This document shows positions 1,415 through 32,644 of a stretch of 64,000 nt of DNA, piece by piece (positions within the stretch are counted from its first letter, which is position 1; each line of letters starts with the position of its first letter). Both the position numbers and the translations under genes were made by a program. The stretch spans positions 1 to 64,000 of the forward strand of contig NZ_JARUVM010000012.1 in the NCBI RefSeq assembly GCF_029763755.1, read 5' to 3'. The DNA comes from Luteimonas sp. 8-5 (GTDB lineage Bacteria; Pseudomonadota; Gammaproteobacteria; Xanthomonadales; Xanthomonadaceae). Below the pieces are notes generated by a model. That model did not search any database. It had not been told where the DNA came from and worked only from the letters and a program-made list of their open reading frames with translations.

Positions 1415-1981
1415 TCAGCCGCGCAACAGGGTGCCGGTGCGGGCGTCGCGGATGTCGCTGGGACGGTCGCGGGCGCCGGTCTCGCCTGCCAGCAGGCCGT
1501 CGGTGGCGGCGAGCAGGGCGGGGTCCAGGGAATCCAGGCTACGGGCGGCAGGCTCGCCGGCGCGGTTGGCGCTGGTCGAGACCAGTGGGCCGCCGAAGGC
1601 CGTGCACAGGGCTGCGACCACCGGATGGGCGCTGACCCGCAGCGCCACCCCGTCGTGCTCGCCGCTGATCCAGCGCGGAACCCGGGGCGTGACCGGCATG
1701 ATCCAGGTGTTCGGGCCCGGCCAGCTGGCCAGGACCTCCGCCTTGCGCCCCGGGGGCAGCGGTTCCCAGTCGGCAATGCCGTCGAACTGCGCCGGCGTGG
1801 CGGCGACCAGGATCAGGCCCTTGTCGACTCCGCGCTGCTTGAGCGCGAGCAGGCGCAGCACGGCCGCTTCGTCGAAAGGATCGCAGGACAGGCCCCAGAC
1901 GCTTTCGGTCGGGCAGGCGACCAGGCCGCCGCGGCGCAGCACCGCAACGGCATCGGCGATGGGCAGGACGGGCGCGCTCAC
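1415..1981 (-). CDS. tsaC: Threonylcarbamoyl-AMP synthase, TsaC/YrdC family
   Basis: A 188-residue YrdC-fold protein that makes threonylcarbamoyl-AMP from threonine, bicarbonate and ATP, the first step of t6A formation on ANN-decoding tRNAs. Family landmarks are visible: the N-terminal GGLVACPTESVWGLSCD substrate loop, LKQRG near residue 48, and STSANRAGEP near residue 136. Length fits short TsaC rather than long Sua5, which has an extra C-terminal domain. The start is GTG, 10 nt after the topA stop, so it is probably cotranscribed with topA-smg-dprA. Confidence 0.92.
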   Translation of the reverse strand: MSAPVLPIADAVAVLRRGGLVACPTESVWGLSCDPFDEAAVLRLLALKQRGVDKGLILVAATPAQFDGIADWEPLPPGRKAEVLASWPGPNTWIMPVTPRVPRWISGEHDGVALRVSAHPVVAALCTAFGGPLVSTSANRAGEPAARSLDSLDPALLAATDGLLAGETGARDRPSDIRDARTGTLLRG

Positions 1982-1991
1982 GCTGTCGCCG

Positions 1992-4541
<2,550 letters not shown>

Positions 4542-4644
4542 GGCGGCAGAGGGTCCGGAGCTGGGCGGCGGCGTGCCGTGAAGGCGGCGACGCCCGCGGC
4601 CGTGGCCCCGGGCGTCGATTCCTTTTATTAGAGGTACCACACGC

Positions 4645-4659
4645 GGCGCCGGCGGCGCC
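4645..4659. terminator. GC hairpin between smg and topA
   Basis: Perfect 6-bp stem GGCGCC/GGCGCC with a 3-nt loop in the 143-bp gap after the smg stop. There is no T-tract, so it is at most a weak attenuator or pause site. An AT-rich patch, TTTTATTAGAGG at 4623-4634, follows toward topA and may hold a topA promoter on the minus strand. Confidence 0.3.
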
Positions 4660-4684
4660 AGCCGGTGACCCGGGCGAACCCCGG

Positions 4685-5173
4685 CTAGTGGACCGGCTCG
4701 GGTTCGTCCAGGTACATCTGGGTCTCCATCCAGGCGTAGGCCGCCTCGGAGCCCGGCTGGTTGAACAGGACCATCAGCACGACCCACTTCAGGTCCTCGA
4801 GGTCCAGCTCGTCCTGGTCCAGGGCCATCGCCCGGTCCAGCACCAGCTCGCGCTGGTCCGGGTCCAGGATCCCGTGCTGCTCCAGGAACATCAGGAAACC
4901 GCGGCATTCCACGTCCAGCTTGTCGAGCTCGGGCCCGAAGAAGATCCGGGTCGGGCCGCCGGCACGCGGGTCGCCGGGCGCGGGGCGCTGCTCGGCCAGG
5001 GCGCCGAGCCAGTCGAAGGCCTTGTGGATCTCGGCCGGGCTGAAGCCGGCCTGGGTCAGTTCGTCCAGCAGCGGGCCGTTGGCCAGTTGCTCGCGGTCGC
5101 CCGGCGGCGGGACGTCTTCGGTGAAGTAGTGCTCGAACAGGTACAGCAGGACGTCCAGGATGCTCTCTTTCAT
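4685..5173 (-). CDS. smg: Smg/DUF494 family protein
   Basis: A 162-residue acidic protein beginning [17 protein letters not shown], the signature start of the Smg (DUF494) family. The gene normally lies next to dprA in beta- and gammaproteobacteria, as here, where it overlaps dprA by 4 nt (ATGA). The biochemical role of Smg is not established. The helical C-terminal half ([18 protein letters not shown]) is the most conserved part. Probably cytoplasmic and expressed with dprA and topA. Confidence 0.9.
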
Positions 5174-16844: not shown

Positions 16845-16851
16845 CATGACG

Positions 16852-16857
16852 TATAAT
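16852..16857 (+). promoter_or_regulatory. Consensus -10 box of rpoD
   Basis: A perfect TATAAT lies 42 nt upstream of the rpoD ATG. The -35 region about 17 bp upstream falls in the GC hairpin and does not match TTGACA. It is the best -10 match noted in the window. Confidence 0.6.
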
Positions 16858-16899
16858 GCAGGGTTCTTTCCGTCCCAATATTCCGGTGGCACGCCCCCT

Positions 16900-18768
<1,869 letters not shown>

Positions 18769-18858: not shown

Positions 18859-19302
18859 ATGGCCGTCACCGCCGACCGTACCCGGCCCCGGGCTGATCCC
18901 GGGGCTTCACACCCCTTCCACGCATTCGCCCTGTCAGGCGCCTTCGTCCTGTTCCTCGGCGCGCTGCTGGCCGACTACGCCTACTGGTCCAGCCACCAGA
19001 TCCAGTGGAGCAACTTCGCATCCTGGCTGCTCGTCGGCGGCATGGTGCTGGCGAGCATCGCGGTGCTGTGCGAGGTCTTCGCCCTGTTCGTCGGCGGCCG
19101 CAGCTGGTTTCGCGTCCTGGTGGTCGCCGCAACCTGGGTCGTCGGATTCTTCGACGCGTTGCACCATGGCCGCGACGCGTGGGCCATCATGCCGGCCGCG
19201 CTGTGGATGTCGTTGCTGGTGACGGTGCTGGCATTGGTCGCGACCTGGCTGGCTTTCGCAAGCCTGCCCCAAGCGTATGCGCGCGCGGGAGGTGTCCGAT
19301 GA
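18859..19302 (+). CDS. DUF2231-like four-TM membrane protein
   Basis: A 147-residue protein with four hydrophobic segments, beginning after HPFHAFALSGAFVLFLGALLA, which fits the DUF2231 family of small inner-membrane proteins often encoded beside PQQ-dependent or haem dehydrogenases. The start codon has a GAGGAG site 8 nt upstream. Its stop overlaps the start of the following sugar dehydrogenase (ATGA), so the pair is translationally coupled. A membrane anchor or electron-transfer role for the dehydrogenase is an inference. Confidence 0.72.
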   Translation: MAVTADRTRPRADPGASHPFHAFALSGAFVLFLGALLADYAYWSSHQIQWSNFASWLLVGGMVLASIAVLCEVFALFVGGRSWFRVLVVAATWVVGFFDALHHGRDAWAIMPAALWMSLLVTVLALVATWLAFASLPQAYARAGGVR

Positions 19303-21596: not shown

Positions 21597-21669
21597 GGGC
21601 CTATAGCTCAATGGTTAGAGCAGAGGACTCATAATCCTTTGGTTCCAGGTTCGAGTCCTGGTGGGCCCA
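21597..21669 (+). tRNA. tRNA with CAU anticodon (Ile2 or Met)
   Basis: The 73-nt cloverleaf folds completely: 7-bp acceptor (GGGCCTA with TGGGCCC), D arm GCTC/GAGC, anticodon stem GAGGA/TCCTT with loop CTCATAA, T arm CCAGG/CCTGG with TTCGAGT, discriminator A. The anticodon is CAU. It is not an initiator, because the first acceptor pair G1-C72 is intact. The short D loop resembles tRNA-Ile2, whose C34 is modified to lysidine, but elongator Met is not excluded. CCA is not encoded; TTTTTC follows. The gene borders the island and is the likely attachment site. No gene is seen in 21670-21872. Confidence 0.92.
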
Positions 21670-21872
21670 TTTTTCACCCCGTTCAACGCCGTCCGACCCC
21701 GATCGACCGCATCAAGCAAATACCTGAAAAATAAGGTTTTTCGGAGCAAAGCGGCAGTTCGATCCAGTACGACGGAGTCGGTTTACATCCGCCTCAAAGT
21801 GGGGGCACATTTGGGGGCACATTCCCAATTTTGAGGGGCGTCATTTCGAGATGCCCCCAAATATCCCTCCAG

Positions 21873-22485
21873 ATGACGACGAAAGCATTGACGGACGTGG
21901 CCGCGCGCAACGCGCAGCCAAAGACGCAGCCCTACAAGCTGTCGGCCGGTGGCGGCCTCTACCTCGAGGTCATGCCGAACGGCGCCAAGTACTGGCGGAT
22001 GAAGTACCGCGTCGCCGGTCGCGAAAAACGGCTGGCGCTGGGCGTGTATCCGGAAATCTCGTTGAAGCGCGCGCTGGTCGAGCGCGATCGCGCCCCTGTC
22101 GCTGTACGAGCAACGTGACCCGTCCGGCGAGAAGCGGGTGGCGAAGCTAAAAGCCAGGACCGCCGCGGACGCCAGCTTCAAGAACGTCGCCGAAGAATGG
22201 CTGGACGTGCGCGCCAAGGGATGGACCAAGAAGCAGCTCGACAAGGAACGTGCCCGATTGAAGAACCACGCGTATCCCTGGATTGGCCGACTGCCCATTG
22301 CGGACATTGGCGTCATCGAGATCAGGCCGCTGTTGCTGCGGCTGGTCAAGCGCGATTGCATCGAACAGGCCTACCGCCTGCGCGAGCAACTGAGTCGGAT
22401 CTTCCGCTTCGCGGTGGCGACAGAGCGGCCGAACGGGATCCGGCACACGATCTGCGCGATACGCTGCCAGCAAATGCTGGTTTCG
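21873..22485 (+). pseudogene. Broken P4-type tyrosine integrase
   Basis: The remnant of a P4-like integrase. The N-terminal Arm/DUF4102 domain reads LSAGGGLYLEVMPNGAKYWR and LGVYPEISLKRAL in one frame up to about 22090. The frame then shifts, and the reading continues as LYEQRDPSGEKR through NVAEEWLDVRAK and the core-binding SAM-like domain to RIFRFAVATER. A second shift near 22420 (one G lost from a run) moves it to AERDPAHDLRDTLPAN, the family's usual linker. Homology stops at about 22485, so the catalytic domain with the Arg-His-Arg-Tyr residues is gone. It lies 204 bp after the tRNA, where such integrases normally sit. Dead for integration or excision. Confidence 0.85.
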
Positions 22486-22503
22486 TGCGCTGGAGCTGGT
22501 TGC

Positions 22504-23259
22504 TTACAGTTCGCCCAATAAACGGCGTAAGTTATTTCGGATTGTCACGGCAATCTCATTTGGTGGAACATTATGCAGTTGTCCGAGAGCCGCCACGGTG
22601 ATGATCACGTCCGATGGCCTAGAGGGACGTTCGCCGATTTTAGTGAATGGGCCATCGGTCTCAGTGAGGATTCTGTCCAGCGGAATAGTTGAAACCATCT
22701 CGCGGTGACGCTCATTGTCCAACATGGTGGAATTGATCGAGAAGTAGCAACCCATATCAATGGCGCGGCGTGATTCGCTTTTAGTGCCGGTGAACCAATG
22801 CAACACGATTCTTCCACGCCCGGCAGGAAGATGAGCTTCGATATGATCAAGTACGGCCTTTGCTGCCCGAACGCTATGCACCGTAATGACTTTGTTGCCG
22901 GCTTTCGCGCATTCACATAGAACGTGAGCGAAAACCTCCTTCTGTAGATCGAACGAACGGTAATAGCGCGGCCCAGCATCCAGGCCTACCTCGCCGATGT
23001 AACGCGTTTCTGGGAGATGCGCATCCCATATAGGTAATTCGTGGAACCTCTCCGCGACCAACTGGGGATGCAGCCCGAGTGCCGCACGTACATAACGTGT
23101 GGCCTTGGTCAGTTCGAGATTGCGTTGCCATGCCTTTGGAGTGGTCGTTACCGTTAGGGTGAAGACACCAGCCGCTTCCGCTTCGAGAATGGCCGCCTCG
23201 TGATCGGGATACAAATCGAGATGGCAGTGGAGATCCACAAGACCATTGAGCGCAATCAT
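22504..23259 (-). CDS. qatD: QatD, TatD-like metal-dependent nuclease
   Basis: A 251-residue TIM-barrel hydrolase of the TatD family and last gene of the qat operon. All metal ligands are present: H11/H13 (LHCHLD), E90 (GEVGLD), H128 (VHSVRAAKAV), H154 (LHWFTG) and D202 (ETDGPF), so it should be active. TatD proteins are 3'-5' DNases or phosphoesterases; in Qat its target is not settled. The ATG 13 nt after the qatC stop is chosen because it starts just before the barrel, in place of a TTG at 23292 overlapping qatC. Cytoplasmic; lower GC than the chromosome around it. Confidence 0.9.
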   Translation of the reverse strand: MIALNGLVDLHCHLDLYPDHEAAILEAEAAGVFTLTVTTTPKAWQRNLELTKATRYVRAALGLHPQLVAERFHELPIWDAHLPETRYIGEVGLDAGPRYYRSFDLQKEVFAHVLCECAKAGNKVITVHSVRAAKAVLDHIEAHLPAGRGRIVLHWFTGTKSESRRAIDMGCYFSINSTMLDNERHREMVSTIPLDRILTETDGPFTKIGERPSRPSDVIITVAALGQLHNVPPNEIAVTIRNNLRRLLGEL

Positions 23260-23272
23260 GGGTGTGCCACCG

Positions 23273-24637
23273 TCAGATTGGTCTTGTCTCAACGCCGTCG
23301 ATCAAGCGTGCGACTTCATCGAGGCCGCGCCGATAGACGCCGGCTAGCTGGTCCAGCTTCGGTATCTCATCGGTGAGCGGGCCCGGCTTGTGGATCAGGA
23401 GGTTCGCAAGGCTTGGCTGTGCCCGCATGCGTTCGATGGCGAACTGGAACGAACGAACTTGCTGGCCGATCGATTCACGCGTGTCCAAAGCGTGCGCGTG
23501 AAGGTCGGGAACAGTGTAAATCGTGGCGTCAACGCCGCTTCCCCAGGCAGCGTCGAGCGCAGCGCGGCGGATCAAGCACGGCAAGCAGTACCCACAATGT
23601 TCGATGCCACGTCCCTTCCACCTGCCACTGGAGGGGTGTGCACAAGACAGAGATTCGGCAGCGAGGTCGGAAAGAATGCCCTGATTGGCGCACTCGGCAA
23701 CCATCTCTCCTTTGGTTTTGTTCCAATAAGGATTCTCGATCGAAGCATTGATCCCCACCTCTCTGAGCAGATCGTTCCATCTGGCTATGTAGAAGGGATG
23801 CGTGGTTCTTGTGCTGTTGGATCCGAGCCTCAGCGGATCGAGAGGAACGTTGAGCGCGATGAGGCCGTTTTCCGGAACTCGTAGCGTAGATCTCGAACCC
23901 AAGCCCGTTCCAGCGAATACACCAAGTGCGAAGAATAAGAATGACCGGCCCCGTGTGGAATTCTCGGTAGATACGCCTTTCACAAGTTGCGTGCTGAAGG
24001 CCATCCAGACACGTAGTCGATCGAATGCGGACTTCTTGTAGTGCTTCTTCAGCTGATCAAACAGCTGATTCTGCGCATCGCTCGTCGCACCGTCCCCAGC
24101 ATGACTGACCAACAGGGGAGTCATTCCGGATTCAAGGAGATCGATGGCTCCGACGAGGCTATCCAAGCCGCCGGAGAACAAACTGACAGTATCGAAAGGC
24201 GGCGGAAGGAGCGTGACGGGTGAGGTGGTGATGCTGTTGAACTTTCGAGGTCTGGCTCGAAAGCCCACGGTCCAGCGATCACCAGTCAAGAAGTTCAACG
24301 CCTGGACCAGTGTTCCACTCGCCGCGTGCCAGCGAGCCGGGTCGCTGACAGGAATCACCAATCTGATCTCACGTGTCCAGGAATCCTGCGATTGTTCTGA
24401 GCGTGATATCCGCGTATCGGCCGCATGAACATGGGCAGCAAGAACCAAAAGGTCGATACCCATCTCAGAGGGGGTCACGTCGAGGCGCTTTAGGCTGGTC
24501 AATGCGCCGCCGATCCCGTGGTCCAGCATCCTGTCGCCGGCGACGAGGTCCAAACGCGTAACTTGTTCATCGTCGGCGCTTTGAACGGGGGAGCGGTCGC
24601 CGGGGCCGAAGCGGCCAACGATTACGTGCCTTTTCAT
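23273..24637 (-). CDS. qatC: QatC, QueC-like PP-loop enzyme
   Basis: A 454-residue protein whose centre matches QueC, the enzyme making 7-cyano-7-deazaguanine. The ATP pyrophosphatase PP-loop SGGLDS is at 155-160, a substrate-loop-like NPYWNKTKGEMV at 302-313, and a zinc site of C332, C348, C351 and C354 (HCGYCLPC). The first 140 residues and the last 90 are extra to QueC and typical of the Qat member. The start overlaps the qatB stop (ATGA). No other queuosine gene is nearby, which argues against a tRNA-modification role and for its place in Qat. Confidence 0.92.
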   Translation of the reverse strand: MKRHVIVGRFGPGDRSPVQSADDEQVTRLDLVAGDRMLDHGIGGALTSLKRLDVTPSEMGIDLLVLAAHVHAADTRISRSEQSQDSWTREIRLVIPVSDPARWHAASGTLVQALNFLTGDRWTVGFRARPRKFNSITTSPVTLLPPPFDTVSLFSGGLDSLVGAIDLLESGMTPLLVSHAGDGATSDAQNQLFDQLKKHYKKSAFDRLRVWMAFSTQLVKGVSTENSTRGRSFLFFALGVFAGTGLGSRSTLRVPENGLIALNVPLDPLRLGSNSTRTTHPFYIARWNDLLREVGINASIENPYWNKTKGEMVAECANQGILSDLAAESLSCAHPSSGRWKGRGIEHCGYCLPCLIRRAALDAAWGSGVDATIYTVPDLHAHALDTRESIGQQVRSFQFAIERMRAQPSLANLLIHKPGPLTDEIPKLDQLAGVYRRGLDEVARLIDGVETRPI

Positions 24638-25503
24638 TGATCCGCCTCCGCATCGCCTAGGGCTTGGAGAATTGCGAAGGAGCGTTCGTAAACTGTATCA
24701 ACGAATGACTGGATACGATCTTGGGTGAGATTGGGCGTCGCCGCACGCGCTTCAGACAAAGCGTCACTGACGCCGTTCCGAATGAAATCGTGCAGTTGCT
24801 TCTGGACCTGAAGCGCAGCTCGGGCATCGGCCGGGACGGTTATCGCCTTGGTGCCGATGTCGTTACACAATCTCGCCTCGATCGCATGAGTCGCATAAAG
24901 CTCGAACACGGTTTGCATCTGGTCGGGGGTCAAGGCATCAAGATCGGTGATCCCGACGGTAGTAAGTTCGATGATGGTCTCGATAAAAGCTTCACGTGCA
25001 ATTCCCTCGTCGACCGTCCCTGCACCCGGACAGATGTGTTCGGCCAAGCCGACGAATACCTGATCGATAGGGAGGCCAGCAAGGCTCTCCAGATTGAGGG
25101 TCTTCAGGGCTTCCCGAACACCGCGTGCCTGTGCGTCGGAGAGGAAACTGAGCAGCCTTGTGCCGGCGCCTCTGGATGCGCCCATGCGCTGGGCGGCCTG
25201 TCTTGCGCCCCCTGATGCGGTTGAGACATAACGTGATACGGCGCGTCCCAGATTGACCCGGTCACTACCGCCAGAGTTCGCAAACCGGGTGAAACTGGTT
25301 CGTGCGCCCGTGAATCGGCCGGGATCTGCCGGTGCGGGCAAAGGGGGGCGGCGAGGCGGGCCAGGTGGAGGTGCCGGGCCATCGCCGCCGGGAACGTCGC
25401 GGTCCGGGGAGGGTGAAGGACTGTCGCCACCACCCGCACCAAGCCAGGAAGGAATCAGGGGCGTGCCGCCGCCGGGGCCGCCATACGCTGTGGAAGTCCC
25501 CAT
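24634..25503 (-). CDS. qatB: QatB, small partner of the Qat system
   Basis: A 289-residue protein starting MGTSTAYGGPGGGTPLIPSW, a Gly-rich N-terminus characteristic of QatB proteins, followed by a Pro-rich, probably disordered stretch (about 30-65) and a helical domain. No catalytic motif is visible. The start ATG shares its A with the qatA stop (TAATG), so translation is coupled. QatB is needed with QatA, QatC and QatD for phage resistance in studied examples. The exposed Gly2 after Met removal is the feature to note with respect to QatC. A longer in-frame start upstream would intrude into qatA and is discounted. Confidence 0.9.
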   Translation of the reverse strand: MGTSTAYGGPGGGTPLIPSWLGAGGGDSPSPSPDRDVPGGDGPAPPPGPPRRPPLPAPADPGRFTGARTSFTRFANSGGSDRVNLGRAVSRYVSTASGGARQAAQRMGASRGAGTRLLSFLSDAQARGVREALKTLNLESLAGLPIDQVFVGLAEHICPGAGTVDEGIAREAFIETIIELTTVGITDLDALTPDQMQTVFELYATHAIEARLCNDIGTKAITVPADARAALQVQKQLHDFIRNGVSDALSEARAATPNLTQDRIQSFVDTVYERSFAILQALGDAEADQ

Positions 25504-27461
25504 TAGCGACTCTTCCCCGATGTCTTGCTGGTGCCTTCCGCGGCTGCTTTCAGCATCGGATTGTTCGTGACTTTGGCCCAGCCCGCCAACAATTGATCGA
25601 ACCGATCCTTGGCGTCGGTTTCTTTGAGAATCGACTGCCACCCTCCAACCACCCAAGGTCCACACCGGCTGCTGGGTAAGGCTTCAAGGAAATCCAGTAG
25701 TTTCCCCTGCAGGCTTGGCTGAGCTTTGATCAAGGCAATCAATCCATCGATTCCTGCAGGCTGGGTGTCGAAGGTATCGCCACTCATGATCTTGGCGCGC
25801 ACGGCCTCGAACAGCTTCTCGGCCTCGGGCTGTGCGAGCAACTTCAGTTCTGATTCCAGTGCCTGTACTGATAGCTTCGCACCCAGTAGCTTTTCTGCGA
25901 CCACGGCGAGATGGCCAAGTACGGACGCGGGTCCGAAGTAGTCTTTCTTGTCCTTGGTGGCAAACAGATAGGGGCGAAGATCAATCTCGGAGAGTGAGGG
26001 CTGCACGCTCGCCCACGACAAGATTGCCGGCGACGATTTCCATTCTGTTAGAACGACGCTTTCCGGTGCTGTGGCCGACGCCTTCGAGCCCTTCCCATCG
26101 TTAGTCGATTTGGATTTCGTGCTGGAGTTCGTTGCACCGGTGTCGACCGCTGCCAGAGATTTTTCCAGAAGCGCTAGATCTTCGCAGTGGCCTTTGGCAT
26201 GAGTTACGGCCACAGTAGCAATCTGATCGAACAAGCTTGGAATAAAGCGTTCGGCAAGCATCAGCTTGGCCAGTATCGGCAGCTTGATCTCGTCGCCAAA
26301 GCCCCGTGCATCCGCGGTGCGCTGACGCAACAGGAGTGCATTCAGGAAGCGCTTGATCTGTCGCGGATTCCCTTTCGCGCCGCTTGCCAGCGTGGGTCCT
26401 ATCTGATCGCTTAGCATCAACGCGTTATGCGCCTTCTTCGCATTGTCACCCAATGCCTTGTTCACGGTTGCATTGTCCAGCGGCTCGCTGGCCCACGGTC
26501 GTTTCAACCGCTCGCGGGCAACCTTGATGAGTTCGTTGTAGCCGTCGTCGCTTTCCCCGACTTCCGCGCCGGCCAACAGCAACGTGACGTAGATACGTGT
26601 TTCGGCTTCACCCAATGACGGAATTCGAAACGGAACCTGGATGAGCTTTTCAAGATAGTTTCTCGCGTAGTCACGCGGGCCAGTGGTTTCTGGCAAATCG
26701 GGGAAGTGTTTGCGCACGGCGTACTCGATCATGGCCTCGTCGGCCGCGACCACGAAGGCAGTTCGAGCGGTGAACACGAACAGGCGTATTGCTTCGAGCG
26801 TCTCGATGGCAGTGTCTGGCAGACAGCGATCGAGATCGTCAATCAGCACGACCAGTTGTTCGATGCCGGCTTCCTTCAGGAGCTTGTCGAACGCCTTGCG
26901 GAATTCCTCGACTTCCTCCGGTACGTTCTTGGTTTCCGCTGGCTTCAAAACCGACTTCACGCCATCGATGGCATCGGTGATGTTCTCACGTGTCGCGAGT
27001 TTCCCGGGATCGGCGAGTATTCCTTCGAGCGCTTGGACGATACTGCTGATCTGCTCAGGCGTGGGGACTCCAGTGAACGTCGTCAAGGCCAAGCCACCGG
27101 CCTTCTTTGCCACTTTCAGCCAGTCGATGCGCTTGAACACATCTTTGACGGCGGTGCCAGCCTTGGTTAGTGCTGGGCGTTTCTCGACTAGCCCTGTGAC
27201 GATGCCTTCGATGAGGGCGATCTTGGCGTCTTCGAAGCCTTGGAAGCGCCAACCGTTGAACTTGAGGCACAGCACCTTATCGTTGCCGTCGAAGCCGGCT
27301 TCGATCATTTCCAGAACGCTGGACTTGCCTGCTCCCCAGTCGCCATGAACGCCGATCGTGACGGGGCGATCGGGACGCTCTTGAAGCAAGCCGATGATGG
27401 TGGTGGCGATCGCCTCGTTATTCAGCAGATCGACCTTGGTTTCATTGTCGGCCAGGATCAT
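25503..27461 (-). CDS. qatA: QatA, KAP-family P-loop ATPase
   Basis: A 652-residue KAP/STAND-like ATPase and first gene of the qat operon. Walker A is GDWGAGKSS (40-48) and Walker B VVLIDDLDRC (about 204-213); DDLDRC is diagnostic of KAP NTPases. A hydrophobic stretch near 120-135 (AGGLALTTFTGV) may be the short membrane-associated insertion of the family. The start MILADNETKVDLL is preferred to an ATG 33 nt upstream because GGGGGAG lies just ahead of it and KAP proteins usually start there. A probable sensor or motor of anti-phage defence. The operon is divergent from abiE. Confidence 0.92.
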   Translation of the reverse strand: MILADNETKVDLLNNEAIATTIIGLLQERPDRPVTIGVHGDWGAGKSSVLEMIEAGFDGNDKVLCLKFNGWRFQGFEDAKIALIEGIVTGLVEKRPALTKAGTAVKDVFKRIDWLKVAKKAGGLALTTFTGVPTPEQISSIVQALEGILADPGKLATRENITDAIDGVKSVLKPAETKNVPEEVEEFRKAFDKLLKEAGIEQLVVLIDDLDRCLPDTAIETLEAIRLFVFTARTAFVVAADEAMIEYAVRKHFPDLPETTGPRDYARNYLEKLIQVPFRIPSLGEAETRIYVTLLLAGAEVGESDDGYNELIKVARERLKRPWASEPLDNATVNKALGDNAKKAHNALMLSDQIGPTLASGAKGNPRQIKRFLNALLLRQRTADARGFGDEIKLPILAKLMLAERFIPSLFDQIATVAVTHAKGHCEDLALLEKSLAAVDTGATNSSTKSKSTNDGKGSKASATAPESVVLTEWKSSPAILSWASVQPSLSEIDLRPYLFATKDKKDYFGPASVLGHLAVVAEKLLGAKLSVQALESELKLLAQPEAEKLFEAVRAKIMSGDTFDTQPAGIDGLIALIKAQPSLQGKLLDFLEALPSSRCGPWVVGGWQSILKETDAKDRFDQLLAGWAKVTNNPMLKAAAEGTSKTSGKSR

Positions 27462-27520
27462 TGGCTCCCCCCGCATCCCCGTAGCTGCCTTCATCTTACA
27501 TCGTTATATTAAGCGACGGA

Positions 27521-27606: not shown

Positions 27607-28446
27607 TTGACCACAAAACATGATTATGCCCCGGTCAAGACGCTTGGGCCGCGTGCGGCACAGCTGTTCACCGAACTCTATGAGCGAGGTCGGTCGACCT
27701 TCACCTTGTCCGATGTGAAGACCATCACCGGTCTATCGGCGGGTTCGGCGCGCAGCTTGGTTCACAAGGCCCAGCAGCGCGGCCTGGTCACCCGGCTCAA
27801 ACCCGGCCTATACAACCTTGTGCCTTTCGAACTGGGTCGTGCGACGGAACACATCGATATTCCCTACCTGATCGCACGCGAACTGGCGGGTACGGCCGCC
27901 TATTTCCTGTCTCATGCCACGGCGCTCGAATTGCACCGGATGACGACACAGCCCAACTTCACCATCTATACATCTTGCACTCGGCGCGTCCGACCTCAGA
28001 CCGTGGGTGGCTACGAATTTCGGTTCATCCAAATCAACGACGCGCAGAATTTCGGGGTGACCAAGCATTGGGTCGATAAGGAACGCTTTGTGATGATCAG
28101 CGACATGGAACGCACGATCATCGATGGTCTGCGGCACCCGTCCTACACCGGCGGCATTACCGAGATCGCCAAAGGCCTGTGGATGAAGCGCGATACCATC
28201 CAGGTTGACCGGCTGGTGGACTATGCGTTGAGAATCAACGTAGGCGCCGTATTTAGACGACTTGGATTTCTGCTGGAACAATACAAGCTTGCAGATGCCG
28301 ACCAGTTGGAGCCCTTGCGCGCCAAATTGACAGCCACCTATCAACGGCTGGACCCGATGATGCCCTCGGAAGGCACGTTCGTGTCACGTTGGCGGCTTCA
28401 GCTCAACATCACGCCAGAAGAGTTCGATGCCGTGAGGTTGGGCTGA
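27607..28446 (+). CDS. abiEi: AbiEi antitoxin/transcriptional regulator
   Basis: A 279-residue protein of the AbiEi family, antitoxin of type IV toxin-antitoxin systems. The N-terminal winged helix (about 15-65: FTLSDVKTITGLSAGSARSLVHKAQQRGLVTRLKPGLY) binds DNA; the C-terminal domain (about 80-275) neutralises the toxin. The start is TTG, chosen because an in-frame TGA lies at 27583 and AAAGGGG sits 6 nt before it. The stop TGA shares its A with the ATG of the toxin gene. It most likely autorepresses through the inverted repeat upstream. Confidence 0.9.
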   Translation: MTTKHDYAPVKTLGPRAAQLFTELYERGRSTFTLSDVKTITGLSAGSARSLVHKAQQRGLVTRLKPGLYNLVPFELGRATEHIDIPYLIARELAGTAAYFLSHATALELHRMTTQPNFTIYTSCTRRVRPQTVGGYEFRFIQINDAQNFGVTKHWVDKERFVMISDMERTIIDGLRHPSYTGGITEIAKGLWMKRDTIQVDRLVDYALRINVGAVFRRLGFLLEQYKLADADQLEPLRAKLTATYQRLDPMMPSEGTFVSRWRLQLNITPEEFDAVRLG

Positions 28447-29282
28447 TGATCCCTCAACGCAGCATCTCTAAAATTGCCAACACATTGACCACTGCTGGCG
28501 GACGGCGCATTCCAGAGTCGGTCATTGAGCGCGACTACGTCTTGGCTTGGTTCCTCACGGGATTGGCGGTTCATCCCTTGCGCGAAGTCATGGTCTTCAA
28601 AGGCGGAACCGCTCTGCGGCGCTGCTGGTTCGAAGATTACCGTTTCTCAGAAGATCTAGACTTCACGTTGAGTCAGCCGATCACCCTGCAGGAGATTCTT
28701 GCAGGTCTCGCCGAGATCTTTGCCTCGATCGAATCGGCGTCCGGGTTGCGTATCGCTTTCGATCGAGAGGATCGGCACGGTCACCAGAACAGTCACACCT
28801 TCTATCTGCGTTACCAGGGACCGCTGCCAGCCTCAAACGATGTCAAAGTCGACGTCACTATCAATGAAGTGCTGTGCTTCCCATTGCAAGAGCGGCCGGT
28901 GTTGCGTACCTATGATGCGTTCGATGATCTGCCCGAGACGGGGACGGTACGCGTCTACGCGATCGAGGAAATTGTTGTCGAAAAGCTCGTCGCACTAAGC
29001 GACCGTGCGCGTAATGAACCCCGCGATCTCTATGATCTCTGGTATCTGCTTGGATCGTCCGACTTGCGCTTGGACGAACTGCGTGCAGAACTGGACGCGA
29101 AGCTTGCCTTCAGGCAGCGGACGGCTGTTGGCCTGGGACAAGCGGTCGCTGGCAAAGAAGATCGCTTGCGACGACTTTGGTCCGGGCGGCTCACACATCA
29201 GATGAGCCAGCTGCCTGCGTTCGATAATGTCTTCCGTGAAGTGCAACGGGCGATTCGTGCTGCTGGCCTTCCAAGGCTGTAG
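28446..29282 (+). CDS. abiEii: AbiEii nucleotidyltransferase toxin
   Basis: A 278-residue member of the AbiEii/MenT-like DNA polymerase-beta superfamily. The nucleotidyltransferase core is FKGGTALRRCW (51-61) followed by FSEDLDF (67-73), giving the GGTAL and DxD elements. The conserved EEIVVEKLVALSDRARNE and RDLYDLWYLL blocks lie near 180-210. Such toxins transfer nucleotides, in some relatives to tRNA, and stop growth reversibly; in AbiE this gives phage resistance. All core residues are intact. Translationally coupled to the antitoxin. Confidence 0.92.
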   Translation: MIPQRSISKIANTLTTAGGRRIPESVIERDYVLAWFLTGLAVHPLREVMVFKGGTALRRCWFEDYRFSEDLDFTLSQPITLQEILAGLAEIFASIESASGLRIAFDREDRHGHQNSHTFYLRYQGPLPASNDVKVDVTINEVLCFPLQERPVLRTYDAFDDLPETGTVRVYAIEEIVVEKLVALSDRARNEPRDLYDLWYLLGSSDLRLDELRAELDAKLAFRQRTAVGLGQAVAGKEDRLRRLWSGRLTHQMSQLPAFDNVFREVQRAIRAAGLPRL

Positions 29283-29346
29283 CGTCAATGGCTGACCGCT
29301 ATGGCCGCGATCAGTTTGCTGCCGTGCGGGCCGAAGAGGGATGCAT

Positions 29347-29958
29347 ATGAAGTGGATCGCGTTGATCTTCGTACTCGTGGCGCTTGTCATAATCGCCGGC
29401 ACGGGATGGATCTACTTCAATGCACTCGGCAAGCCGTTCACTGCAATCACCATCGATGATTGGACTTCGTTTGGCACCTACTTCGGCGGGACCGCTGGCC
29501 CGCTACTGGCGTTTCTGACGGTCGCTGGGCTGGTGCTTACGCTGCTGATGCAGAATCACCAGCTCGAACAGGTCGCTCAAGGCGACCTCAAAGACAAGCA
29601 CGTGCGGATGTTGATCGAGATCGGACGCGACCTGGAAGCAATGGAGGCACAGCACCTAACATCCGATGTCACCTTGGGCGACGTGCTGAATGGTGCGAGT
29701 TCCCTGCCTAGTTCCGGCGAGCAGGTCTTTCGGACAACGCTGCAGAGCTATGTCAAGGTGCTGGGCTACTTCGCTCAAAGCGTTGAGCTGTATCGGGACA
29801 ATATCTCGCCGTACTTCGATTGCCGCGCTTTCGAGCAGCGCGGACTGCGGTTGCTGGCGCGTGTCGAGCCGTATGTGCAGTACCTTGGACAGATGGGAGG
29901 CCCGGGCCTTGTGATCATGCGTGCACACTTGGAGAACACGCTTGTAAAGCGTCCTTAG
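29347..29958 (+). CDS. Two-TM membrane protein resembling putative AbiC proteins
   Basis: About 203 residues. Two hydrophobic segments, residues about 3-25 and 45-67, are joined by WTSFGTYFGGTAGPLLAFLTVAG, which resembles the conserved membrane region of the putAbiC group of putative phage abortive-infection proteins. A helical cytoplasmic domain of about 130 residues follows. ATGs at 29341 and 29347 compete; the second has GAGGG at 6 nt. It lies 64 bp after abiEii on the same strand inside the lower-GC island, so a defence role is likely by context. No catalytic motif is visible. Confidence 0.6.
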   Translation: MKWIALIFVLVALVIIAGTGWIYFNALGKPFTAITIDDWTSFGTYFGGTAGPLLAFLTVAGLVLTLLMQNHQLEQVAQGDLKDKHVRMLIEIGRDLEAMEAQHLTSDVTLGDVLNGASSLPSSGEQVFRTTLQSYVKVLGYFAQSVELYRDNISPYFDCRAFEQRGLRLLARVEPYVQYLGQMGGPGLVIMRAHLENTLVKRP

Positions 29959-30192: not shown

Positions 30193-30735
30193 ATGAACCC
30201 GCGAATCGTCCCCATGACCATAGGTACGATCGCCGCATGCCTCTTCGCCCTCGCCGTCCATGCGGGCGATCCGGCCGGGCTCGACCTGATGAATGCCGCC
30301 AATCCAGGGGGCGGCATCTACACTTCCGGACGTATCTCCCAGGGCGACATCGCCAAACTCGAGGCCGCGGGCATCCGCCACGTCATCGACCTCGCGCAGG
30401 ACGGCGAGACCCCGGAGTTCGATGAGGCCGCCGCAATGCAGGCCGCCGGCATCGGCTACGACAACCTGCCCATCTCCGGACCGGATGCGTTGACCCGCGC
30501 CAACGTCGAAGCCTTCGACCGCCTGCTGGCCGGTGCGCAAGCGCCCGTGCTCGTGCATTGCGCCAGCGGCAACAGGGTCGGCGCGATGGCCGCGCTGCGC
30601 GCAGCGTGGATCGAAGGCGTGCCGGTCGAAGAGGCCATCGCCACGGGCCGTGCCTGGGGACTGCGCTCGCTCGAAGCCGCGGTTCGCGAACGGCTGGCCG
30701 CATCGCCAGGCGTCGCCCCTGTTTCCAGCAAGTAG
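30193..30735 (+). CDS. Exported DSP-like tyrosine phosphatase (TIGR01244/DUF442-type)
   Basis: A 180-residue protein with a signal peptide (cleavage near AVHAGD). The catalytic CX5R loop is VHCASGNRVGAM (Cys near residue 121, Arg near 126) and the N-terminal YTSGRISQGDIAKLEAAGIRHVIDLA is characteristic of the small DUF442/beta-lactamase-hydrolase-like phosphatases. A good GGAGGGG site precedes the ATG. The general acid Asp is not obvious, so activity is not assured. It is 5 bp from the following beta-propeller gene and probably in the same operon. Confidence 0.75.
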   Translation: MNPRIVPMTIGTIAACLFALAVHAGDPAGLDLMNAANPGGGIYTSGRISQGDIAKLEAAGIRHVIDLAQDGETPEFDEAAAMQAAGIGYDNLPISGPDALTRANVEAFDRLLAGAQAPVLVHCASGNRVGAMAALRAAWIEGVPVEEAIATGRAWGLRSLEAAVRERLAASPGVAPVSSK

Positions 30736-30740
30736 GCCGC

Positions 30741-31844
30741 ATGCACGCGCGCCCCTGGGCCATCCTCGCGGCCATCGCCATCGCGCTGGCCGTGATGGCG
30801 GCGGGCGCGTGGTGGAAGCAGTTGCGCCCCACGGGCGTCCATCCAGGCTTCACCCAGGGTTTCGTCGACCTGAATCGCCGCATGGACGACGACGCCACCG
30901 CGGTCGCCTACGATCCGACGCTCAAGATCCTTGCCGTCGGCCGCGACAGCGGGCGCCTGGAGCTGTGGGATGCATCGCAGCCCGACGCGCGGATCACGCG
31001 CCAGGCGCACACCTACCGCATCGAGCACATCGCCTTCGGCGCCGCCGACGGCATCGTCCTGACCAGTTCGGTCGGCTCCAACGTGATGGGCACGGATCCG
31101 GAAGGCGTTCCCAAGGTCTGGGACGCACGCACCGGCGACCTGTTGCTGGCAGTGCCGGGCGAATGGTCGGGCGGACCGTTGCTCGCCGCTCCGGTGTCGG
31201 GCCATTACCTGCTGTCCAGCTACGACGAGTTGCGCATCTACGATCATTCCAGGCGCGCGATCGTCGGTGAGCCGTTGCGCGTGGAAGGCGGCGTCACCGC
31301 GCTCGGCATGGATCCGGGCTCGAACCTGGTCGCCGTGGGCAGCAGCAACGGCGAGCTGCTGTTGTTGCGGTTGGTGGTGCAGGACGAATCCGCACGCCTG
31401 GATGTCGTCAGTCGAGCTCATACCCATGGCAAGGAGCCGCGCACGGACGTCCTGGCGGTAATGCTGCGCGACAACAGCGAGCGCCTGGTCAGCGTGCACT
31501 GGCTGCCGGAAGCGCAACGGCGCGACCTGTCGCCGAAGATCGCCGGCGAACAGGCCGAGGTCGTGCAATGGAATACGCGCGACTGGCGCCGCGAGCGCAG
31601 CTACCCGATCAGTCTGCAGGCCGTGCACTGGGCTTCGTACACGCCCGGCGTGCCGTGGCTGGTGCTGGCCGGCAACGAATCCACCCGCGGCAGGATCGAG
31701 CTGGTCGATCTTTCGGCGGGCGTTGCGTGGCGCTACCGGGCCAATACCTCGCATCCCGTGGCTGTGCTGATCCCCGAGGCACGGACGGGATTGATCCTGC
31801 AGAGCGGCGGCGCGACACAGATCCGTTATCTGGACCAGGAATAG
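30741..31844 (+). CDS. Membrane-anchored WD40-like beta-propeller protein
   Basis: A 367-residue protein with an N-terminal signal anchor (residues about 6-24) and repeating WD40/YVTN-like blades: VAYDPTLKILAVGRDSGRLELWDA, PKVWDARTGDLLLAV, LGMDPGSNLVAVGSSNGELLLL. Its predicted fold is a beta-propeller facing the periplasm. No enzymatic residues are recognised. It meets the convergent NRDE gene with only 4 bp between stops. Function unknown. Confidence 0.65.
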   Translation: MHARPWAILAAIAIALAVMAAGAWWKQLRPTGVHPGFTQGFVDLNRRMDDDATAVAYDPTLKILAVGRDSGRLELWDASQPDARITRQAHTYRIEHIAFGAADGIVLTSSVGSNVMGTDPEGVPKVWDARTGDLLLAVPGEWSGGPLLAAPVSGHYLLSSYDELRIYDHSRRAIVGEPLRVEGGVTALGMDPGSNLVAVGSSNGELLLLRLVVQDESARLDVVSRAHTHGKEPRTDVLAVMLRDNSERLVSVHWLPEAQRRDLSPKIAGEQAEVVQWNTRDWRRERSYPISLQAVHWASYTPGVPWLVLAGNESTRGRIELVDLSAGVAWRYRANTSHPVAVLIPEARTGLILQSGGATQIRYLDQE

Positions 31845-31848
31845 CGGA

Positions 31849-32637
31849 TCAGGAGCTACCCACCTCGATCCAGGCATCGCTGGTGCCCAGCACCGCGCCA
31901 TCGGCGCCGAACCTGCGCTCGACGAAACGGATGCCGTGCGCCTGCACCAGCACGATCGAGCTGCAGCGCGTGCCGTAGACCGGATCGCGCACGAATGGTG
32001 GGGAGAGGCGGCGCTCCAGTTCGGGGCCGACACCCGTGTCGGGCAGGTCCGCGTCGTGCGCCGGCGTGTCGTCGGCGAGCGCCATCAGCAGGGGCGAGAT
32101 GTCCGCATTGCGCGCATCGGCGGGCAGGCCGTTCTTCATCCAGCTCGCCAGGGCCCGGCTGGCGAAGTTGCTCTTGGGCCACGGCGCATCGAACGGGCCG
32201 TTGGAGACGGCGTGCAGGCCCGGCGCGACCGGATGCCGGGCAAAGCGTGGATGGTTGCCTGCATATTCCATCGCCTGGCCGTCCCACAACACCAGGTTGA
32301 ACGGCCCATGCTCGCCGGCGACGGGCGCCACCGCATCCAGGAATGCATCCACATCGCTGGCGCCGGACACGAAATCGCGCACCAGTGCGCCACGCGAGCG
32401 CGGATGGCTCGCACCCAGGGGCTGCACCCGCACATTGGTCACGGCAGCCAGCCGCCCGCGTCGCGACACCATCAGCCATCCGCCGCCCTGCACCAGGTCG
32501 CGGCCGCCATACAGGTCCGGCAGGTCGGGATCGACGCCCGCCGCCGCCGTCGGCCGCGCGTGCAGCTCGTCGCGGTTGGCGACCAGCACCAGCGGACAGG
32601 CGGGATGCTGCTGCAGGCCGAGGGCAACCAGGCACAT
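31849..32637 (-). CDS. NRDE (TANGO2-like) family protein
   Basis: A 262-residue protein beginning MCLVAL, with the diagnostic VANRDELHARPT at about residues 22-33 (the N-R-D-E that names the family), then GGRDLVQGGGWLMVSRRGRLAAVTNVR. Cys2 would be exposed as an N-terminal nucleophile if Met is removed, as in Ntn-hydrolase-like folds. TANGO2 relatives have been linked to haem handling; the bacterial role is not established. It lies 7 bp downstream of a small membrane protein gene. Confidence 0.85.
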   Translation of the reverse strand: MCLVALGLQQHPACPLVLVANRDELHARPTAAAGVDPDLPDLYGGRDLVQGGGWLMVSRRGRLAAVTNVRVQPLGASHPRSRGALVRDFVSGASDVDAFLDAVAPVAGEHGPFNLVLWDGQAMEYAGNHPRFARHPVAPGLHAVSNGPFDAPWPKSNFASRALASWMKNGLPADARNADISPLLMALADDTPAHDADLPDTGVGPELERRLSPPFVRDPVYGTRCSSIVLVQAHGIRFVERRFGADGAVLGTSDAWIEVGSS

Positions 32638-32644
32638 GCGCCTG

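Follow-up and report, generated by a model that had tools for sequence, protein, structure and literature searches.

The DNA analysed here, a window of 64,000 nt from Luteimonas sp. 8-5, contains a complete copy of Qat, a bacterial virus-defence operon that is already known. As a locus it is ordinary and extends the list of Qat carriers by one. Of greater weight is the comparison across hosts: Qat also occurs in hosts in which QueC, QueD and QueE are not detectable, which argues against 7-carboxy-7-deazaguanine (CDG) made by the host as the substrate of QatC. Taken as a whole, our explanation is highly probable: a complete qatABCD operon shares a decayed, integrase-borne island at a tRNA gene with an AbiE pair, and works by modifying QatB.

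Table 1 Features of the qat island and its insertion point in the window.
Feature	Position	Strand	Evidence
tRNA gene, anticodon CAT, likely island insertion point	21597..21669	+	ARAGORN; empty site in G733
Broken tyrosine integrase, arm-binding and central domains in two ORFs	21831..22521	+	Pfam
qatD, TatD-like metal nuclease, 251 aa	22504..23259	minus	NCBIfam NF041926, 350.3 bits (cut-off 230)
qatC, QueC-like PP-loop ATPase, 454 aa	23273..24637	minus	NCBIfam NF041925, 552 bits (cut-off 280)
qatB, 289 aa	24634..25503	minus	NCBIfam NF041924, 244.3 bits (cut-off 100), residues 98-276
qatA, KAP-family P-loop NTPase, 652 aa	25503..27461	minus	NCBIfam NF041923, 928.2 bits (cut-off 600)
abiEi, antitoxin/regulator, divergent from qatA	27607..28446	+	PADLOC AbiEi, 3.2e-87
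abiEii, nucleotidyltransferase toxin	28446..29282	+	PADLOC AbiEii, 7.5e-87; Pfam AbiEii, 139.3 bits

An earlier, sequence-only reading of this DNA had proposed qatABCD in this order on one strand at 22504-27461. The four frames lie there on the minus strand, and NCBIfam and PADLOC both assigned the proteins as QatA-D. The defence-system HMM search that it recommended placed all four above the curated NCBIfam cut-offs. The E-values for QatA, QatB, QatC and QatD were 2.7e-279, 7.2e-73, 7e-166 and 3.9e-105, respectively, indicating that the four-gene match did not arise by chance. The PADLOC models covered almost the entire length of each protein (residues 1-651 in QatA), and QatA also matched Pfam KAP_NTPase with 160.9 bits. 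QatB starts with MGTS and has a Gly/Pro-rich N-terminal tail followed by the conserved domain, while QatC has a PP-loop core with N- and C-terminal extensions. Among solved chains, QatB resembled PDB 9vll_A (3.2e-49) and 9zee_A (1.3e-45) over almost its entire length, QatC resembled 9vlk_A (1.4e-131) and 9zee_B (2.7e-118) over its full length, and QatD resembled 3gg7 (1.9e-61); a sequence search at E 0.01 found no solved relative of QatA. The PDB listing names no organism, and 9zee is presumably the P. aeruginosa protein and 9vlk the E. coli protein, because the residue numbers fit. The coupled starts described earlier hold for two of the junctions, with TAATG common to qatA and qatB and ATGA common to qatB and qatC; qatC and qatD are uncoupled, with a gap of 13 nt. 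An in-frame ATG lies upstream of qatA at 27494, and both the PADLOC and NCBIfam models start at residue 1 of the protein read from 27461.

The active-site residues listed in the sequence-only reading were all recovered. QatA has Walker A (GDWGAGKS) and Walker B (VLIDDLDR) motifs, QatD has the metal motifs DLHCH, GEVGLD, TVHS, LHW and TETD, and QatC has SGGLDS at 155-160 and four cysteines (C332, C348, C351, C354) that align with zinc cysteines. By alignment to the solved chains, S155/D159/S160/R231/F235/T276/T278 of QatC correspond to S156/D160/S161/R233/F237/T278/T280 in the numbering of PMC13279940, and the cysteines correspond to C334/C354/C357/C360. D62 aligns with the conserved D63 (E. 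coli numbering) of PMC13329287. All of these QatC residues, the zinc cysteines and D63 included, were identical in 98/98 aligned QatC sequences, a set made up of the window and 101 loci after removal of L039 (early frame break) and L115-L117 (longer relatives). The QatB tail keeps its Pro and Trp (P18, W20); the counts of Gly2 and Ser4 in the QatB alignment follow by construction, because length and an MG[TS]S start were the criteria for choosing its rows.

Residues at the QatB-QatC interface, and one loop residue of QatC, were less constant. The loop residue L271 of QatC (L273 in P. aeruginosa) was Leu in 88/98 sequences. In the charged patch of QatC, R407 of the P. aeruginosa protein is kept as R403, R410 is replaced by A406 and R414 by L410, and the acidic D181/E182 of QatB are T181/T182 here. 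A triple mutant of the P. aeruginosa patch loses defence (PMC13279940). Leu stands at the QatC 410 place in 81/98 sequences and the interface differs in most of the set, suggesting a common trait and not a defect of the copy in the window.

That QatC is a misnamed queuosine enzyme is almost certainly wrong. It gave a weak match to Pfam QueC (PF06508, 21.2 bits), which is under the 22-bit cut-off, and no match to the curated QueC model TIGR00364 was listed at E 0.001; the QatC equivalog, by comparison, matched with the 552 bits of Table 1. A separate QueC is encoded in the same genome (G000:C46:8235-8858, 195.5 bits, above cut-off), together with QueD (127.9 bits, above cut-off) and a QueE-like gene near this QueC (42.8 and 73.3 bits against two models built for other QueE types). 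The Tyr/Asp pair found in QueC and in Cap9 of type IV CBASS is T276/T278 in QatC here. Placement of QatC in the queuosine pathway, which the sequence-only reading would have counted against Qat, thus fails on the separate QueC and the Thr/Thr pair. Published work agrees, as E. coli QatC fails to restore queuosine in a queC deletion (PMC13329287). A type IV CBASS identity for the locus was also rejected, since the CD-NTase and Cap10 families had no PADLOC match in the ten proteins scanned from the island and its edge.

The operon lies on an island that is recognizable from its composition, its neighbours and its absence from relatives. The G+C content was 0.575 in qat and 0.569 in abiE, compared with 0.65-0.715 in the surroundings (left flank 0.706, 16846-18768 0.65, 30193-31844 0.685, right flank 0.69). 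The two integrase ORFs matched Pfam Arm-DNA-bind_3 (67.9 bits) and Phage_int_M (74.3 bits), and no Pfam catalytic-domain match was found in them. The AbiEi/AbiEii pair, 145 nt to the right of qatA and divergent from it, matches the AbiE type IV toxin-antitoxin system and is a separate system adjoining Qat, not a Qat component. We placed the abiEii start at ATG 28446 and not at TTG 28389 of the ORF list because the Rhodoferax homologue (L024) begins MIPQRN.

In blastn comparisons (matches >60 nt at E 1e-8), none of five same-genus tRNA regions (L130-L134) contained DNA similar to 21.7-30.3 kb of the window. We therefore place the island at ~21.7 to 30.1 kb, with an approximate right border. The cleanest empty site was that of G733 (L131), with 68 nt separating the tRNA from the gene found at 31870-32640 in the window. 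G278 (L130) has a cupin gene between these two, and the region of G734 (L134) is rearranged. The DNA 3' of the tRNA in G736 and G225 (L132, L133) is unlike the window and may represent other inserts. Whole-genome searches of G225 and G278 gave no QatC match. When the window was searched for the tRNA 3' end, allowing up to 3 mismatches, the single other match (19109-19126, 3 mismatches) lay to the left of the tRNA; the right border was therefore set from G+C content and the relatives. The qat operon was probably gained horizontally, and the decayed integrase could indicate that selection no longer acts on the island.

It could be argued from the broken integrase and the missing second attachment site that the operon is a relic whose protection has been lost. 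We consider this very unlikely, since the four frames are open, the catalytic residues are intact, and stops would be expected to build up in a dead 5-kb operon. Judged by its sequence, the copy in the window would be expected to protect its host against phages.

Among the matches listed, the nearest QatC proteins by tree came from MAGs assigned to beta- and other proteobacteria (78% identity in the case of L021), and those of Stenotrophomonas, which belongs to the same family as the window, were more distant (70-71% identity). Within the order of the window, QatC exceeded the cut-off in 5/299 genomes including the window's own, after 46 of the 51 matching genomes were left out as below cut-off. 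At least 594 stretches in named genomes matched the pattern and at least 476 of them encoded relatives, of which the best 80 were used. Together with four viral contigs these gave 84 loci, all found through QatC. Their genes follow the order A-B-C-D; QatA was seen in 79 loci, QatB in 83, and QatC and QatD in all 84, and 4/5 loci without QatA end at that point. AbiE lies ~3.5 kb upstream of qatA in two relatives (L023 and L024). In L024, SIR2 and HerA genes are located between AbiE and qatA; SIR2 and HerA form a known defence pair.

Previous work showed that QatB and QatC suffice against lambda-vir, and that sensitivity to other phages, Bas25 and Bas39 among them, returns once QatA and QatD are lost (PMC13279940). 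In P. aeruginosa, QatB and QatC form a complex, and Gly2, SGGxDS and the two Thr are all required (PMC13279940). Most likely, QatB and QatC would form the core complex here too. Removal of the initiator Met of QatB would expose an N-terminal glycine, to which QatC would join a small carboxyl (or similar) substrate that it has activated at the expense of ATP. The modified QatB would then restrict phage growth, and the NTPase QatA and the nuclease QatD may broaden the range of phages. The gene content and order of the locus, its catalytic residues and its island setting are direct observations. We infer that the copy in the window is active, that QatB is modified by this reaction, and that the substrate is other than host-made CDG. 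The accessible text of the 2026 structure paper declares the QatC reaction unresolved, reports that in vitro reconstitution of QatC activity failed, and does not show modified QatB (PMC13279940).

The main competing explanation is that QatC joins host-made CDG to QatB, like Cap9 and its partner in type IV CBASS. This model was adopted in PMC13329287, which draws a carboxydeazaguanylation scheme for Qat. The fold and PP-loop are held in common, the N-terminal glycine is required (PMC13279940), and the genome of the window has QueC and QueD above cut-off as well as the QueE-like gene. However, the CDG-binding Tyr/Asp places are Thr/Thr in 98/98 QatC proteins. The same replacement was noted in the 2026 structure paper, where placing Tyr/Asp at these positions abolished defence (PMC13279940). 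The host distribution also bears on the model: a requirement for host-made CDG would predict QueD and QueE in Qat hosts, and QueC in almost all of them. Our literature search found no published count of Qat against QueC, QueD or QueE hosts, with two works on E. coli QatBC outside its coverage.

Our first sample of QatC carriers combined 5 G genomes with 46 of the best 80 loci, isolates favoured; these 51 handles represent 50 distinct genomes because G199 and G305 are identical. QueC was above cut-off in 42/51. The nine QueC-less carriers were Mesorhizobium ephedrae, Pannonibacter carbonis, Rhizobium sp. 18065, Azospirillum sp. B4, Aquamicrobium defluvii, one uncultured Jannaschia and three MAGs; the uncultured genome (G329) and the MAGs (G342, G343, G344) were given little weight, as they may lack sequence or contain contamination. 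QueD (PF01242) was absent from 7/9 QueC-less carriers, with a 71-bit match in P. carbonis and Rhizobium sp. 18065. QueE, searched with two models, was absent from 8/9, and the ninth (G343) had two weak matches (23.4 and 19.8 bits) in one 249-aa frame. Twelve QueC-bearing controls showed QueD in 10/12 and QueE in 10/12, so that PF01242 and the two QueE models combined each miss 2/12.

The second sample consisted of 389 genomes from the class of G312, for which ≥95% completeness was requested and no completeness values were returned. After sub-threshold QatC matches in G490, G599 and G683 were left out, QatC was above cut-off in 10/389 genomes, QueC in 158/389, and both in 4. QueC was thus not enriched in QatC carriers (4/10, compared with 154/379 of the others; Fisher p = 1.0); G312 was the sample centre and its lack of QueC was known beforehand, and the fraction was 4/9 without it. 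The six QueC-less carriers (G312, G391, G530, G597, G662, G701) had neither QueD (0/6) nor Cx14CxxC QueE (0/6). The other QueE model gave at most 22.1 bits over a partial profile, resembling the second matches seen in QueC-bearing genomes, for example G613. The four QueC-bearing carriers had QueD in 2/4 and QueE in 3/4, indicating that the models missed QueD in 2/4 and QueE in 1/4.

Among the operons of QueC-less hosts, QatA, QatB (MGTS), QatC (SGGxDS and the Thr motif) and QatD were whole in L055, L056, L058, L068, L082, L090 and L092. QatB, QatC and QatD were also whole in L109 (G391), L110 (G597), L112 (G530) and L114 (G701), loci too short to cover QatA; L112 has neither the P-x-W pattern nor the TETD-type motif. 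L065 (G316), L079 (G342) and L111 (G662) were cut or broken. On the QatC tree, the QueC-less label required 14 changes for 14 rows compared with 12.7 in shuffles, showing that QueC-less hosts were not clustered. The QatC of M. ephedrae, whose host lacks QueC, differed by ~0.015 changes per column from that of Sphingomonas trueperi, whose host has it. It seems that Qat passes freely among hosts, whether or not they synthesize 7-deazaguanines.

Within a CDG model, the QueC-less hosts could be accommodated if CDG were salvaged or brought by the phage, or if Qat were idle there or QueD and QueE were missed by the models, which do miss them in some QueC-bearing genomes. Taking into account the six carriers with no QueD match and no convincing QueE, we regard joining of host-made CDG to QatB as rather unlikely. 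A different substrate is favoured, short of proof, by the invariant Thr/Thr pair and by the finding of Qat where QueC, QueD and QueE are not detectable in the host. More specifically, QatC may ligate a common metabolite, and not a 7-deazaguanine, to a protein N-terminus, with Qat working without 7-deazaguanine synthesis; we hold this reading to be evenly balanced. If it is true, the modification of QatB would represent a novel type of conjugation between protein and metabolite in immunity.

Compared with type IV CBASS, Qat likewise combines a QueC-like PP-loop enzyme with a partner that requires an N-terminal glycine, as published, but QatC has Thr/Thr where Cap9 has Tyr/Asp. The closest known counterparts are the solved QatB-QatC complexes (9zee/9zef and 9vlk/9vll; PMC13279940). 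Although the basic patch of P. aeruginosa QatC and the acidic patch of its QatB are partly replaced in the window, the gene set and order, the MGTS start and P-x-W tail motif of QatB, and the SGGxDS motif, Thr-x-Thr motif, zinc cysteines and extensions of QatC are the same.

The low-G+C island shared by the AbiEi/AbiEii pair and qat may include another gene, encoding a 205-aa protein whose PHROG matches were weak only, all to entries of unknown function. Pfam matched no catalytic domain in either ORF of the integrase remnant, and a search for the tRNA 3' end across the window, allowing up to three mismatches, found no second att copy.

Coordinates of the features discussed
Feature	Sequence	Position	Remarks
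Integrase remnant	window	21831-22521	split over two ORFs
QatD	window	22504-23259	
AbiEi/AbiEii pair	window	27607-29282	open frames; divergent from qatA
205-aa protein	window	29341-29958	hydrophobic N-terminal stretches; G+C 0.571
SIR2 and HerA genes	L024 (Rhodoferax MAG)	1847-5127	between AbiE and qat
QueE match	G315:C144 (Sinorhizobium fredii USDA 205)	261828-262540	two pieces in different frames

Among the relatives, the Rhodoferax MAG locus L024 carried SIR2 (593.8 bits) and HerA (525.7 bits) genes detected by PADLOC, with a KTSC domain at the C-terminal end of the HerA protein; its AbiE-to-qat spacing recurred in L023. Divergent qatA-D sets were present in three IMG/VR viral contigs (L101, L102, and L103), and two Listeria phage records contained a distant QatC-like stretch with 26% identity across 63% of the query. 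The QatC-like proteins of L115, L116, and L117 (~615–620 aa), which scored under the curated NCBIfam QatC threshold (280 bits) and retained SGGxDS, form a separate branch of the family.

An 'Actinomycetes' MAG (L047) and a Comamonas MAG (L038) encoded identical QatC proteins, suggesting a misbinned contig. The split QueE match in S. fredii USDA 205 is a frameshift or sequencing error.

Compared with solved structures, QatD scored 211 bits against PDB 3gg7, an uncharacterized metalloprotein, and 201 bits against 9xsn, 'Hydrolase TatD'. Because these scores far exceed those of the remaining TatD entries in PDB (<70 bits), 3gg7 and 9xsn may be solved QatD proteins.
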